Of a DNA stretch of 50,080 nucleotides, positions 10,222 to 15,351 are shown in pieces. This DNA is from an uncultured Pelagibacteraceae bacterium (GTDB lineage: Bacteria; Pseudomonadota; Alphaproteobacteria; Pelagibacterales; Pelagibacteraceae). Below the pieces are notes generated by a model that was given only the letters and a program-made list of their open reading frames with translations, ran no database searches and was not told the DNA's origin. Position 1 is the first letter of the stretch; every line of letters starts with the position of its first letter. Location: contig CACPCD010000004.1 in NCBI GenBank assembly GCA_902632315.1, forward strand, positions 1 through 50,080, written 5' to 3'. A program made the position numbers and the translations under genes.

Positions 10222-11433
10222 TTAAACCTTTTCAAAAATTAATGCAGCATTAGTTCCACCAAAACCAAAACTATTAGACATTACAGTATTTAAAGTTGCA
10301 CCAGTTTCAGTTTTTGCAACTATAGGAAATTTTTTAGCCTCCTCATCCATCTCACTAATATTCGCTGAACCAGCGATGAAATTATTTTTCATCATAATTA
10401 AACAATATATGGCTTCATGCACAGAAGCAGCACCAAGAGGATGACCTGATAGAGATTTTGTTGAACTTATTTTTGGAATATTGTCTCCAAAAGTACTTTT
10501 AACTGCATTTAACTCCGTAATATCTCCAACTGGAGTAGAAGTTCCGTGAGTATTAATATAATCAATTTTATTTTTAGCTGTAGACATTGCCATTTGCATA
10601 CATCTTACAGCCCCCTCGCCTGATGGCGCTACCATATCGTACCCGTCTGAAGTTGCTCCATAACCAGTTAATTCAGCATAAATTTTAGCACCTCTAGCTT
10701 TAGCGTGTTCGTATTCCTCAAGCACTAAAACTCCACCACCACCTGCGATTACAAACCCATCTCTAGTTTTGTCATAAGCTCTTGATGCTGTCTCAGGAGT
10801 ATCATTATATTTTGATGATAAAGCAGTCATAGCATCAAACATCGCAGTCATCGCCCAGTGAATCTCCTCACTACCTCCTGCAAAAACAACATCCTGTTTT
10901 CCCATTTGTATTAGTTCCATTGAATTACCAATACAATGTCCACTAGTTGCACATGCAGAGCTCATTGTATAATTTGTTCCTTTTATTTTAAAAGGCACAG
11001 CTAGAGTTGCTGATGCTGTACTTGCCATAGTTCTTGGGACAATAAATGGCCCCATTAGTTTTGGAGTTTTAGCTCGAGTTTTATCGGCTGCTAAAATAAC
11101 ATTTTCAATTGATGGGCCACCTGAACCCATAACAATACCCGTCTTGAAATTACTAATTTCTTTTTCTTCTAAGCCAGAGTCTTTTATAGCTTCATTCATA
11201 GCTATATAGTTGTAAGCTGAACCAGATCCCATAAATCTTATTGTTTTTCTGTCAATATGATCTTCAAGTTTAATATTTGGTTTTCCATGAACATGACTTT
11301 TAAGGTTATGCTCTTTATATTCTTCTGCAAAAGATATTCCTGATTTAGAGTTCAACAGTGAATTATGCACCTCTTCTTGATTATTACCTAAACAAGAAAC
11401 AATACCTAAGCCTGTTATAACTACTCTCCTCAT
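10222..11433 (-). CDS. fabB: 3-oxoacyl-[acyl-carrier-protein] synthase I
   Basis: Condensing enzyme of fatty acid elongation, needed for extending cis-unsaturated chains made by FabA. The 403-residue thiolase-fold protein shows the active Cys in [12 protein letters not shown], and the two catalytic histidines in [10 protein letters not shown] and SGHPLGAAS. Pairing with fabA supports type I (FabB) rather than FabF. Its ATG shares a base with the fabA stop (TAATG at 11431-11435 on the minus strand), implying coupled translation. Confidence 0.93.
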
Positions 11434-11933
11434 TATTTAAAAAGTCCTACTTTCAAACTTTCAGCAGAATATATCTTTTTACCATCTGCTAGAACAACAC
11501 CATTTGCAAGACCTACAGTTGTTCCACCTGGTGACATAATTTTTTTCATATCTATTTCATATCTAACTAAACTAATGTTTTCTAGAACTTCTCCTGTAAA
11601 TTTCACTGTTCCAACTCCTAGGGCTCTACCTCTTCCAGGGTTTCCTATCCAACCTAAATAAAAACCCACTAACTGCCACATAGCATCAAGACCAAGACAA
11701 CCAGGCATAACAGGATCCTCTTTGAAATGGCAATCAAAAAACCAAAGATTTTTTTTTATGTCCAGCTCTGCTTTCAATGAGCCTTTTTTAAAAGCGCCAT
11801 CATTATCGTTAATTTCGGTTATTCTGTCAAACATGAGCATTGGGGGTAAAGGCAGTCTAGCATTTCCTGGGCCAAAAAGTTTTCCATTTCCACAATTAAT
11901 GAGCTCATCGTATGAATATGAGTTTTTTTTCAT
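11433..11933 (-). CDS. fabA: 3-hydroxydecanoyl-ACP dehydratase/isomerase
   Basis: Hot-dog-fold enzyme that dehydrates 3-hydroxydecanoyl-ACP and isomerises trans-2 to cis-3, the branch point of unsaturated fatty acid synthesis. It has 166 residues. The catalytic His and Asp occur in [20 protein letters not shown], and the usual [12 protein letters not shown] stretch precedes it. It is first in fabA-fabB-fabI and is transcribed away from the Irr-type regulator; the operator-like box at 11992-12008 lies 58 bases upstream of its start and could influence both directions. Confidence 0.95.
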
Positions 11934-11991: not shown

Positions 11992-12008
11992 TTTAGAACA
12001 ATTATAAA
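11992..12008. promoter_or_regulatory. Fur-family (Irr-like) operator upstream of irr
   Basis: TTTAGAA (11992-11998), CAA, TTATAAA (12002-12008). Both arms are identical to those of the site in the katG promoter at 12462-12478, with the same three-base spacer, so 15 of 17 bases agree. The left arm equals half of the rhizobial iron control element bound by Irr (TTTAGAA...TTCTAAA, as I recall it). The right arm differs from the mirrored half by one base. It lies 16 bases before the GTG I assign to the regulator and suggests autoregulation. Confidence 0.6.
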
Positions 12009-12024
12009 TTATATTGTCTTTTTT

Positions 12025-12423
12025 GTGAAATATATAGATAAATTAAGAAATTCTGGATTAAGACCTACAAAACAGAGACTTCAAATATGTAAAGTTTTAT
12101 TTGATACTAAAAAGACATTTCATTTTACAATAAATGATCTTGCTAAAAAAATTAAGAAACAAATTAATGATAACATCTCTTTAGCAACAATTTATAATAC
12201 TATTCATGCATTTGAAAAAAAAGGATATTTAAAACAAATTCCAATAAATTCTAATGAGACATATTTTGATACAAATATTTCTGATCATCATCATTTTTAT
12301 GATTTAAAAGAGGAAAGATTAATTGATTTAGAAAATTCTGATGTTGGGCCAATAAATATTAAGAAAAAAATTAACGGAAAAAAAATTAAATCAGTAGAAG
12401 TTCTAGTCAAGCTTGAAGATTAA
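12025..12423 (+). CDS. irr: Fur-family transcriptional regulator, Irr type
   Basis: DNA-binding regulator of iron/haem and peroxide genes. From GTG 12025 it has 132 residues; the frame is open to a TTG at 11989, but that start would place the operator box inside the gene and add a hydrophobic tail, so I prefer GTG. The Fur winged helix is clear: GLRPTKQRLQICKVLF near the N-terminus and the recognition helix SLATIYNTIHAFEKKGYLKQI. A histidine-rich stretch DHHHFYD follows. Only one cysteine is present, so the CxxC zinc site of Fur/PerR is missing, as in Irr. The position beside fabA is where irr sits in many alphaproteobacteria. Confidence 0.8.
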   Translation: MKYIDKLRNSGLRPTKQRLQICKVLFDTKKTFHFTINDLAKKIKKQINDNISLATIYNTIHAFEKKGYLKQIPINSNETYFDTNISDHHHFYDLKEERLIDLENSDVGPINIKKKINGKKIKSVEVLVKLED

Positions 12424-12451
12424 CTTTTTCAATTTTTCATTTTTTATCTCA

Positions 12452-12480
12452 TTGACACTTATTTAGAATCATTATAAAGT
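12452..12480 (+). promoter_or_regulatory. katG promoter
   Basis: A consensus -35 TTGACA (12452-12457) is followed after 17 bases by TAAAGT (12475-12480). The predicted start falls near 12487, so the GAGGAG at 12486-12491 would be at the very 5' end of the mRNA, 7-11 bases before the ATG. The operator-like palindrome at 12462-12478 fills the spacer and touches the -10, an arrangement suited to repression by steric block. Confidence 0.65.
12462..12478. promoter_or_regulatory. Fur-family (Irr-like) operator in the katG promoter
   Basis: TTTAGAA (12462-12468), TCA, TTATAAA (12472-12478). It has the same arms and spacing as the box upstream of irr. Read as a 7-1-7 element (TTAGAAT-C-ATTATAA, 12463-12477) it differs at one position from the PerR box of Bacillus as I recall it. 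It lies between -35 and -10 of katG, so binding by the adjacent regulator should repress the gene. Confidence 0.65.
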
Positions 12481-12497: not shown

Positions 12498-14735
12498 ATG
12501 AGTACGGAAAGTTATAAAAAAAAATCATTTAAATCAGAACAATTAAGCAAATGTCCATTTACTGGAACAGGAACACCAGCAAAATTCTCTGCTGGTAGGG
12601 GGCAAACAAATAGAGATTTTTGGCCTAATAGTCTTAATTTAAAAATTTTAAGCCAACACTCTGAATTATCAAATCCAATGGATAAAAAATTTAATTATTC
12701 AAAAGAATTTAAAAAACTTAACTTCAAGGCTCTTAAGAAAGATTTAAAAAAATTAATGACAAGTTCCCAGGAATGGTGGCCAGCAGACTACGGTCATTAC
12801 GGCCCTCTATTTATAAGACTTGCATGGCACGCTGCAGGTACTTATAGAACTGGTGATGGTAGAGGTGGAGCAGGAACAGGCAATCAACGTTTTGCGCCAT
12901 TAAATGCATGGCCAGATAACGTAAATTTAGATAAAGCAAGATTACTTCTATGGCCAATTAAAAAGAAATATGGAAAAAAAATATCTTGGGCAGATTTATT
13001 TATATTAGTTGGTAACGTTGCCCTTGAGTCTATGGGATTTAAAACATTTGGTTTTGGTGCTGGTAGGAAAGATATATGGGAGCCAGAAGATGATATTTAT
13101 TGGGGATCAGAAAAAGAAATGCTTGGTGTTAATAGATATAGTGGAAAAAGAGATTTAGAACAACCACTTGGTGCTTCGCATATGGGACTGATATATGTAA
13201 ATCCTCAAGGTCCTGATGCAAATCCTGATCCATTACTTGCAGCTCATGATATAAGAGAAACATTTGGAAGAATGGCAATGAATGACTACGAAACAGCGGC
13301 TTTAGTTGCTGGAGGTCACACATTTGGAAAATCTCACGGAGCTGCTCCAGAATCTCATAAAGGACCAGACCCCGAGGCTTCTAAAATTCAAGATCAAGCA
13401 ACAGGATGGAACAGTAATTTTAAGTCGGGAAAAGGTGTAGATACGATTAGTAGTGGTATAGAGGGTGCATGGACTCAAAACCCAATTAAATGGGATATGG
13501 GATATTTAGATTGTTTATATGGACATGAATGGGAACTTACAAAAAGCCCAGCAGGCGCTCATCAGTGGACCCCAAAGAAAAATGGTCAAGAAATAAAAAT
13601 GGTTCCTGACGCTCATAAAAAAAATGTTTTACATCCACCAATGATGCAGACAACTGATATCTCATTAAAAGTTGACCCGAGCTATGGCCCTATAACAAAA
13701 CATTTTCATAAAAATCCTAGAGAGTTTCACGACGCTTTTGCAAGAGCCTGGTTTAAATTGACTCATAGAGATATGGGTCCACGAGCCTGTTATTTGGGAA
13801 ATGAAGTTCCAAAAGAAGAATTGATTTGGCAGGATCCAATAGATAAACCAAAATATAAGATTAAAATAAAAGATATTAAAAAACTTAAGTCAGATGTGAT
13901 AAAATCTAAAATTTCTGTTTCTGACCTAGTCTCAACAGCATGGGCTTCAGCTTCAACATTTAGAGGATCCGACAAAAGAGGTGGAGCAAATGGTGCAAGA
14001 ATAATGCTTGAACCTCAAAAAAGTTGGAAGGTTAACAATCCAAAAAAACTTTCTCAAGTAATCAAAGTTTTACAAAAAATAAAAAACAAATTTGATACTA
14101 AAACTAAAAGTGTTTCAATGGCTGATTTGATAGTTTTAGCTGGAAATGTAGGAATAGAAATAGCAGCTAAAAAAGCAGGTCAAAATATTATTGTGCCATT
14201 TTCACCTGGAAGAGGAGATGCTAGACAAGATCAAACAGATATTCACTCATTTGGTCTCTTAGAACCACAAGCGGATGGGTTTAGAAATTATTTAAATGAG
14301 ATATCAGAAAATGTATCAGCTGAGGAAAAATTAATTGATAAGTCCCAATTAATGGGACTAACTGCACCAGAAATGACAGCTCTTATTGGTGGACTACGAG
14401 TTTTGAATACTAATTATGATGGTTCTAAATTAGGAGTTTTTACAAATAAGCCTGGAACACTTTCTAATGATTATTTTGTAAATTTACTAGATATGGCAAC
14501 CACTTGGAAAGAAACAGACGAGTCGGAACAAACATTTGTTGGTACAGATAGAAAAACAAATAAAATTAAGTGGAAAGGAACTAGGGTCGATCTTATCTTT
14601 GGATCTAATTCACAACTAAGAGCGCTAGCTGAAGTGTATGCTTGTGAAGACTCTCAGCCCAAGTTTATCAACGATTTTGTCACTGCATGGGTCAAAGTGA
14701 TGAATGCAGATAGATTTGATTTAAAGTTAAACTAA
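12498..14735 (+). CDS. katG: Catalase-peroxidase KatG
   Basis: Haem enzyme that removes hydrogen peroxide by catalase and peroxidase reactions. The 745 residues form the usual two tandem peroxidase-like halves. In the active N-terminal half I see R107-W110-H111 (RLAWHAAG), Y233 (LIYVNPQG) and M259, which with W110 form the family's Trp-Tyr-Met cross-link, and the proximal H274 ([10 protein letters not shown]). No signal peptide is apparent. A strong GAGGAG ribosome binding site precedes the ATG. It has its own promoter with an Irr-like operator and is followed after 19 bases by an oxygenase gene. Codon use resembles its neighbours, so no sign of recent transfer. Confidence 0.97.
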
Positions 14736-14754: not shown

Positions 14755-15351
14755 ATGCCAACAGTGAGTTTCGAAGACTTTTATCAAGTTCCAGATTTAA
14801 ATTTTGATATTTCAAAATTAAGAAAAGATTTAGAAAAGATTTTAAAAAATAAACAATTTAATTCTCCGGGTGTTACTCACTTTGGAGCTATCCCAATAAA
14901 TCAAATTCCAAATGATGAAAATTCCATAAAAGGGAATAACATTAGGGGTAAATATTGGACTATTGCAGATGACACTGGAAAAGAGGTTTCTAGAGATATT
15001 GAAATTGATGAATCTAAATATTCACAGATAGTTCCTGAATTTGAAAATACCTATTTTAAAGAGGTATATGAAACATTAGCTAAAAAATTCAAACTAGGTA
15101 GGGTTAGGTTATTATTAAAAGAACCAAGGTCAACTTTAAGTTGGCATAAAGATCCTGAATGCAGACTCCATGTTCCTATAATTACAAATAAGGGCTGTTC
15201 AATGGTTATTGAAAACGTTGCGAAACATCTTCCTGCTGATGGAAAAGTTTGGATAACGAATAACACAAAATATCATAATTTTTTTAATGGAGGAGAACAA
15301 GCAAGAATACATTTAGTTGCATGTGTTCTAGAAAGCCCTTTTCAAGATTAA
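14755..15351 (+). CDS. 2-oxoglutarate/Fe(II) oxygenase, aspartyl/asparaginyl beta-hydroxylase-like
   Basis: Probable iron- and 2-oxoglutarate-dependent hydroxylase of 198 residues; substrate unknown. The iron-binding HxD is seen in STLSWHKDPECRLHVPI near residue 130, and the distal His plus the 2-oxoglutarate-binding Arg in HNFFNGGEQARIHLVACVL near the C-terminus, spaced as in the aspartyl/asparaginyl hydroxylase family. It follows katG by 19 bases without an evident promoter, so it may be co-transcribed and under the same control. Whether it is linked to peroxide or iron metabolism is inference from position only. Confidence 0.7.
   Translation: MPTVSFEDFYQVPDLNFDISKLRKDLEKILKNKQFNSPGVTHFGAIPINQIPNDENSIKGNNIRGKYWTIADDTGKEVSRDIEIDESKYSQIVPEFENTYFKEVYETLAKKFKLGRVRLLLKEPRSTLSWHKDPECRLHVPIITNKGCSMVIENVAKHLPADGKVWITNNTKYHNFFNGGEQARIHLVACVLESPFQD

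Follow-up and report, generated by a model that had tools for sequence, protein, structure and literature searches.

The window is a 50,080-nucleotide stretch of a SAR11 genome that comprises 916,519 bases in 41 contigs and is 82.6% complete. SAR11 are the ocean's most abundant bacteria. The genes at the locus follow the order fabA (11433–11933, reverse strand), irr (12025–12423, forward strand) and katG (12498–14735, forward strand). The irr gene encodes a Fur-family regulator of 132 amino acids, and the closest named Irr records, from Pelagibacterales/Pelagibacteraceae, are 88–89% identical to it. Its most likely start is a GTG at 12025, because an earlier in-frame TTG (11989) would enclose a conserved box within the gene. 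katG, the occupant of an irr-linked slot, encodes a catalase-peroxidase of 745 amino acids from an ATG at 12498. The next gene (14755–15351), whose product has an aspartyl/asparaginyl beta-hydroxylase domain (PF05118), begins 19 nt past katG and may share its transcript.

Two predicted Irr-type operators flank irr on the forward strand. The first, TTTAGAA-CAA-TTATAAA at 11992–12008, ends 16 nt 5' of the likely irr start, and the second, TTTAGAA-TCA-TTATAAA at 12462–12478, ends 19 nt 5' of the katG ATG. Both lie where an earlier note had placed them, with identical arms and 15 of 17 bases equal. The katG promoter appears to consist of a -35 element, TTGACA (12452–12457), and a likely -10 element, TATAAA (12473–12478), that begins 15 nt past it and falls within the right arm of the operator. 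The box therefore covers the promoter spacer together with the likely -10; the earlier placement of the site between -35 and -10 holds for the spacer, but not as a description of the whole site. The window katG promoter carries one box only. Among 38 representative loci, eight of the ten promoters with two hits have their second box 30–32 bp upstream, a spacing of roughly three turns of the helix, and flanking the -35.

These representatives were drawn from 145 SAR11 loci at less than 85% identity in Irr and FabA; the compared loci are related by descent, and their counts are not independent events. With one mismatch allowed, as the earlier note had proposed for a scan of SAR11 promoters, the gap between irr and its target contains the box in 33 of the 38 (katG 24/26, rubrerythrin 9/12), and in 27 of them it is exact; 200 dinucleotide shuffles average 0.11 and reach 2 at most. 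The stretch upstream of irr contains it in 23 of 38 (shuffle mean 0.165; maximum again 2), and is without it at this threshold in the other 15. When the letters of the motif are permuted, no version hits more than 4 of the 38 gaps. Both sites are confirmed and far exceed chance expectation, and the comparison supports the proposal of matched operators at irr and katG. Twelve promoters picked to represent each type align with 12 invariant columns, all inside the box. In 80 named SAR11 loci, fabA and irr are followed by katG (56) or the rubrerythrin gene rbr (24), with the target box present at no more than one mismatch in 56/56 and 17/24, respectively, and at two mismatches in the other seven rbr loci. 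fabA is divergent from irr in all 80 and keeps its place also in genomes whose irr box is lost, so nothing points to control of fabA by the box, which the earlier note had considered.

Looser searches dilute this pattern. Allowing two mismatches, the motif is not unusual within the window (14 found, 9.7 expected), and the genome-wide scan at that threshold gives no signal, with 313 motif matches against 482 for the reversed control. A strict pattern, TTTAGAA-YNR-TT(A/C)TAAA with zero mismatches, is informative: in the 118 family genomes, with rows sorted and summed by hand, it returned 95 rows, or 92 distinct sites once three palindromes counted twice were removed, and 79 of these belong to irr, katG or rubrerythrin loci. 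The 13 exact sites elsewhere fall below the reversed-pattern control (30); eight are in open reading frames and five are intergenic, and no gene is common to different genomes. The earlier note had named equal frequency at unrelated positions as evidence that would count against its proposal; at zero mismatches the ratio is 79 to 13, which agrees with a circuit largely confined to the irr locus. In the window's own genome, a third exact copy lies inside gcvT, and the 82.6% recovered contains 20 further sites with at most one mismatch, 19 within open reading frames and one intergenic. A regulon beyond the irr locus was considered and set aside on these counts of exact sites in the family and of sites with at most one mismatch in this genome; weaker sites may exist elsewhere.

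Some of the scattered exact boxes have neighbors worth recording. One (L164, G014:C42:19306-19322) stands 26 nt before a 1-Cys peroxiredoxin gene, assigned by Pfam, and may mark an extra Irr target. Further single exact boxes off the locus (L163, L166, L167 and L171) are seen ahead of a gene for a xanthine/uracil permease (G014), a gene for a small protein without family (G083) and, in G113, a gene preceding that for the APS reductase beta subunit; in G004 the neighbor is a DctP-type gene.

The regulator contains a Fur domain (PF01475, 71.7 bits; cut-off 23.1), and its best family match is IrrA (NF045678), in keeping with its earlier designation as Irr-type. The NCBIfam Irr/IrrA models score it at 126.1 bits (cut-off 150) and 115.3 bits (cut-off 170), in both cases below the cut-off, and four other SAR11 Irr proteins, at 124–146.8 bits, also miss the cut-off of 150 (0/5 tested in all). 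PerR families give at most 57.4 bits against the 126.1 for IrrA. By these scores the protein is a divergent Irr-type regulator, IrrA being its best family by far, but it would not be filed as IrrA. Across 146 aligned SAR11 Irr segments, the HHH (HxH) haem motif is retained almost without exception (H88 and H90 in 146, H89 in 145). The CxxC zinc motif, already reported missing from the window protein, occurs in none of the 146 and in one of 25 non-SAR11 reading frames; the Cys-Pro haem regulatory motif, present in just part of the Irr family, occurs in 0/146 and 0/25. Five PerR-type ligands (H33, D82, H88, H90 and D101) are conserved in all 146 SAR11 and all 25 other Irr proteins. Equivalent residues are named for B. 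japonicum Irr (PMC4700492), and a set that Irr also has does not separate PerR from Irr.

The main finding, which escaped the earlier note, is that katG and rubrerythrin are, judged by gene order, exchanged behind the same box. Among 146 SAR11 loci, irr is followed by katG in 105 and by rubrerythrin in 40, which accounts for 145, and in no case by both. Irr orthologues (E below 1e-34) are found in 66 of the 118 family genomes, with katG next in 49, rubrerythrin in 16 and a contig end in one. Irrespective of irr, katG matches, fragments included, occur in 77 of the 118 (40/57 + 37/61), rubrerythrin in 16, both in none, and neither in 25, many of them incomplete. A gene for a GlpC-like Fe-S protein lies 3' of rubrerythrin in those 16 genomes, with a piece of it in G038, and is found in 0 of the 77 katG-bearing genomes. 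Since this gene tracks rubrerythrin and is absent from katG genomes, the exchanged unit is probably rubrerythrin with its Fe-S partner on one side and katG on the other.

The exchange appears to have recurred. A quick tree of Irr and FabA from 146 loci implies ten occupant changes, seven of them forced by starred branches; the tree is built from the genes that flank the slot, and recombination could shift this count. The KatG proteins of SAR11 form two clades, each fully supported and each with different nearest outside relatives. The first type occupies the slot both in the window and in its relatives, and the second includes both slot and non-slot SAR11 genes. An earlier KatG tree, whose outside rows were chosen by likeness to the window KatG, could not distinguish one origin from two. 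A quick tree of 86 sequences that took in the outside rows nearest the second type rejects a single SAR11 clade (AU p 0.001), placing two separately derived KatG clades in the irr-linked slot. Whether the promoter was kept in place or imported with katG was addressed by a nearest-promoter comparison, which gave a mixed result. Eleven katG matches in other SAR11 genera (L099–L103, L176–L181) have one or two in-frame stops in their span, which may be real or edge effects.

Comparison with other members of the class suggests where this arrangement came from. Rubrerythrin matches, from close to distant, occur in 171 of 289 genomes of the class, and irr lies just upstream on the same strand in 25 of the 29 best-scoring non-SAR11 rbr loci fetched. 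Within 200 nt 5' of rbr, these 25 loci carry the box at two mismatches or fewer in 20 and at one or none in 9, counted without a shuffle control. Because the order irr, box, rbr prevails outside SAR11, it is likely the ancestral arrangement. The right arm is TTCTAAA in six of the nine boxes with at most one mismatch and TTATAAA in none. The SAR11 box thus departs by a single base from the symmetric Irr box found elsewhere in the Alphaproteobacteria (TTTAGAA-N3-TTCTAAA): A replaces C, and this A supplies the TATAAA -10 of katG. The proposal that the site is a hybrid of Irr and PerR boxes is ruled out by this symmetric Irr-type box, which differs by one base and occupies the same position at irr-rbr loci outside SAR11.

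Outside SAR11, katG is seldom found beside irr. Only two of 57 fetched non-SAR11 katG loci have irr adjacent at more than 100 bits, and both also contain rubrerythrin. In L353 (G379) the order is irr, a one-mismatch box, katG and rbr; in L339 (G225) it is katG, irr and rbr, with a two-mismatch box upstream of katG. These two loci may be intermediate states between the two occupants. Of the 57 non-SAR11 katG loci, 27 have an OxyR-like gene within the fetched flanks (15/28 + 12/29), against 0 of 60 SAR11 katG loci. A profile model that we take to be OxyR gives at most 61 bits in 24 SAR11 genomes, the ordinary LysR level, with no clear OxyR among them, and in five non-SAR11 genomes it gives 239–253 bits in three and 75–87 in two. 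No genome passed the 329-bit cut-off, so the absence of OxyR from SAR11 rests on this contrast in score.

Loss of irr provides a natural experiment. Of 63 SAR11 katG loci, which are related rather than 63 independent cases, 43 have irr adjacent and 20 lack it. The box (at most one mismatch) is present in 42 of the former and one of the latter. The exception among the 43, L104, has a two-mismatch site. L097, counted among the 42, has a one-mismatch site that overlaps the called start, its better placed site having two mismatches. In six of the 20 loci without irr, katG and fabA are immediate neighbors, as a deletion of irr would leave them, and a two-mismatch copy of the box is seen in one locus of the 20 besides the perfect box of G006. 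In G006 (L177 / L159), katG stands beside fabA, irr is gone and neither Fur-family protein is seen; irr may have been lost recently or may sit on a contig that is missing, or the box may have another reader.

The operators, their conservation, their loss along with irr and the exchange of the target are read from sequence. Building on them, we infer, with a probability of about 0.75, that Irr binds these sites and represses its own gene and that of one peroxide scavenger, and that haem or peroxide releases it. A dimer of SAR11-type Irr would bind the 17-bp near-palindrome both ahead of irr and where it covers the -10 of the gene that follows, so that the two genes stay off. That next gene would supply a single peroxide scavenger, katG here and rubrerythrin with the GlpC-like Fe-S protein in other SAR11. 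Irr would be inactivated by haem, or by peroxide through the iron bound at H33, D82, H88, H90 and D101; the scavenger would then be made, and more Irr with it, so that the switch would be reset. A box over the -10 would fit repression, as at mbfA of S. meliloti, where an iron control element (ICE) lies across the promoter and expression is freed when that element is mutated (PMC7540006). In B. japonicum, haem leads to the loss of Irr (PMC4700492) and exposure to H2O2 to its degradation (PMC4902296). SAR11 Irr has no Cys-Pro motif, which makes degradation by the Cys-Pro route unlikely; the candidate inducers would be haem at the HxH motif or peroxide at the metal site. Counted against this mechanism are the 15 of 38 representatives without an irr box, the box without irr in G006, the L097 site, the missed NCBIfam cut-offs and the detection of Pelagibacterales rubrerythrin both day and night in a metaproteome (PMC8707726).

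Published expression data bear on the sign of regulation. In P. ubique, rbr mRNA is reported 1.57-fold up (P 0.025) 24 h after iron chelation, Irr protein is described in the same source as without significant change under iron limitation, and the irr transcript tracked stationary phase more than iron (PMC2864753). The rise of rbr speaks against a simple iron model, which would have a classical Irr target go down; small as it is, the rise suits a peroxide signal or activation better. It would also be expected if Irr activates, or only fine-tunes, with production of the scavenger under iron shortage, and box position is known to decide whether Irr represses or activates (PMC7762939). This alternative is nevertheless unlikely, given that the box covers the likely katG -10, the usual position of a repressor site, and that deletion of Irr in R. 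sphaeroides raises katE and peroxide resistance. As katE is under OxyR there, the deletion effect may be indirect (PMC3413700).

That a second Fur-family protein binds the boxes, with irr a mere neighbor, is less probable still. Such a protein, about 30% identical and more weakly matched, is found in 87 of the 118 family genomes, and Fur-family boxes can resemble one another. Yet the paralogue persists in 11 of the 20 katG genomes that lack irr, without a box at katG in any of them, a pattern that speaks for Irr rather than the paralogue as the reader of the box. G006, the sole irr-less genome with a box, shows neither protein, and across the class the box marks the neighbor of irr. The idea that the sites are merely AT-rich promoter sequence conserved for RNA polymerase draws on the TATAAA in the right arm and on how common the two-mismatch motif is, but we regard it as very improbable. 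TTTAGAA sits in the spacer, a region whose bases RNA polymerase does not require to be specific, and permuted motifs fall far short of the 33 of 38 gaps. At one mismatch or fewer the box is missing from 19 of 20 irr-less katG loci, and just 5 of 13 exact off-locus sites are intergenic.

With Irr as the preferred reader of the box, the locus can be placed in an evolutionary setting, on which we would wager evenly. In SAR11 Irr, a global iron and haem regulator, may have turned into a local, PerR-like peroxide switch for itself and one scavenger. katG, OxyR-linked in many relatives, would have entered this switch beside rubrerythrin, as the two non-SAR11 genomes G379 and G225 still have it, and displaced it; two separately derived KatG clades would have done so, with some ten occupant changes under a constant operator. 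Published accounts place katG in most offshore SAR11 genera (PMC12636525), and in one study 4 of the 28 SAR11 members had rubrerythrin (PMC11366302). A passage on P. ubique describes it as without catalase and other antioxidant defences (PMC3033426), and Fur and Irr have already been reported there (PMC2864753). A literature search of titles, abstract starts and text passages returned no Irr-type katG operator, rubrerythrin exchange or OxyR absence for SAR11. We make no claim to have been first with the irr and rbr boxes, as Rodionov 2006 and Rudolph 2006 may hold Pelagibacter Irr-box predictions. Peroxide handling is central to the debate on which ocean microbes protect others. In irr-bearing SAR11, the either/or state of katG and rubrerythrin can be read from the genome at one locus with one operator, and the pattern suggests that SAR11 without katG are not defenceless. 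A streamlined genome, it appears, can swap an enzyme and keep its control, and a minimal Irr switch that is compact and recurrent makes its inducer testable.

Several known systems share parts of this design. Like the OxyR-katG pairs of other Alphaproteobacteria, the locus has a regulator gene next to katG; it differs in that OxyR-like genes flank nearly half of the outside katG loci and none of those in SAR11. PerR switches, whose targets include katA and ahpC, also pair a Fur-family protein with a peroxide scavenger and use five equivalent ligands (PerR H37, D85, H91, H93 and D104), whereas the SAR11 regulator best matches Irr, lacks CxxC and is accompanied by an Irr-type box. A further parallel is the Irr/ICE regulon of rhizobia and Rhodobacter, with its Fur-family regulator bearing HxH and its box over the promoter. 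Set beside that regulon and the published ICE consensus, SAR11 stands apart in its right arm TTATAAA, in the lack of Cys-Pro in its aligned Irr proteins, in katG as a target, and in having exact boxes above control level only at irr and its one neighbor. The two nonetheless share targets in peroxide and iron defence, which in Bradyrhizobium include a rubrerythrin-like gene (PMC3413700).
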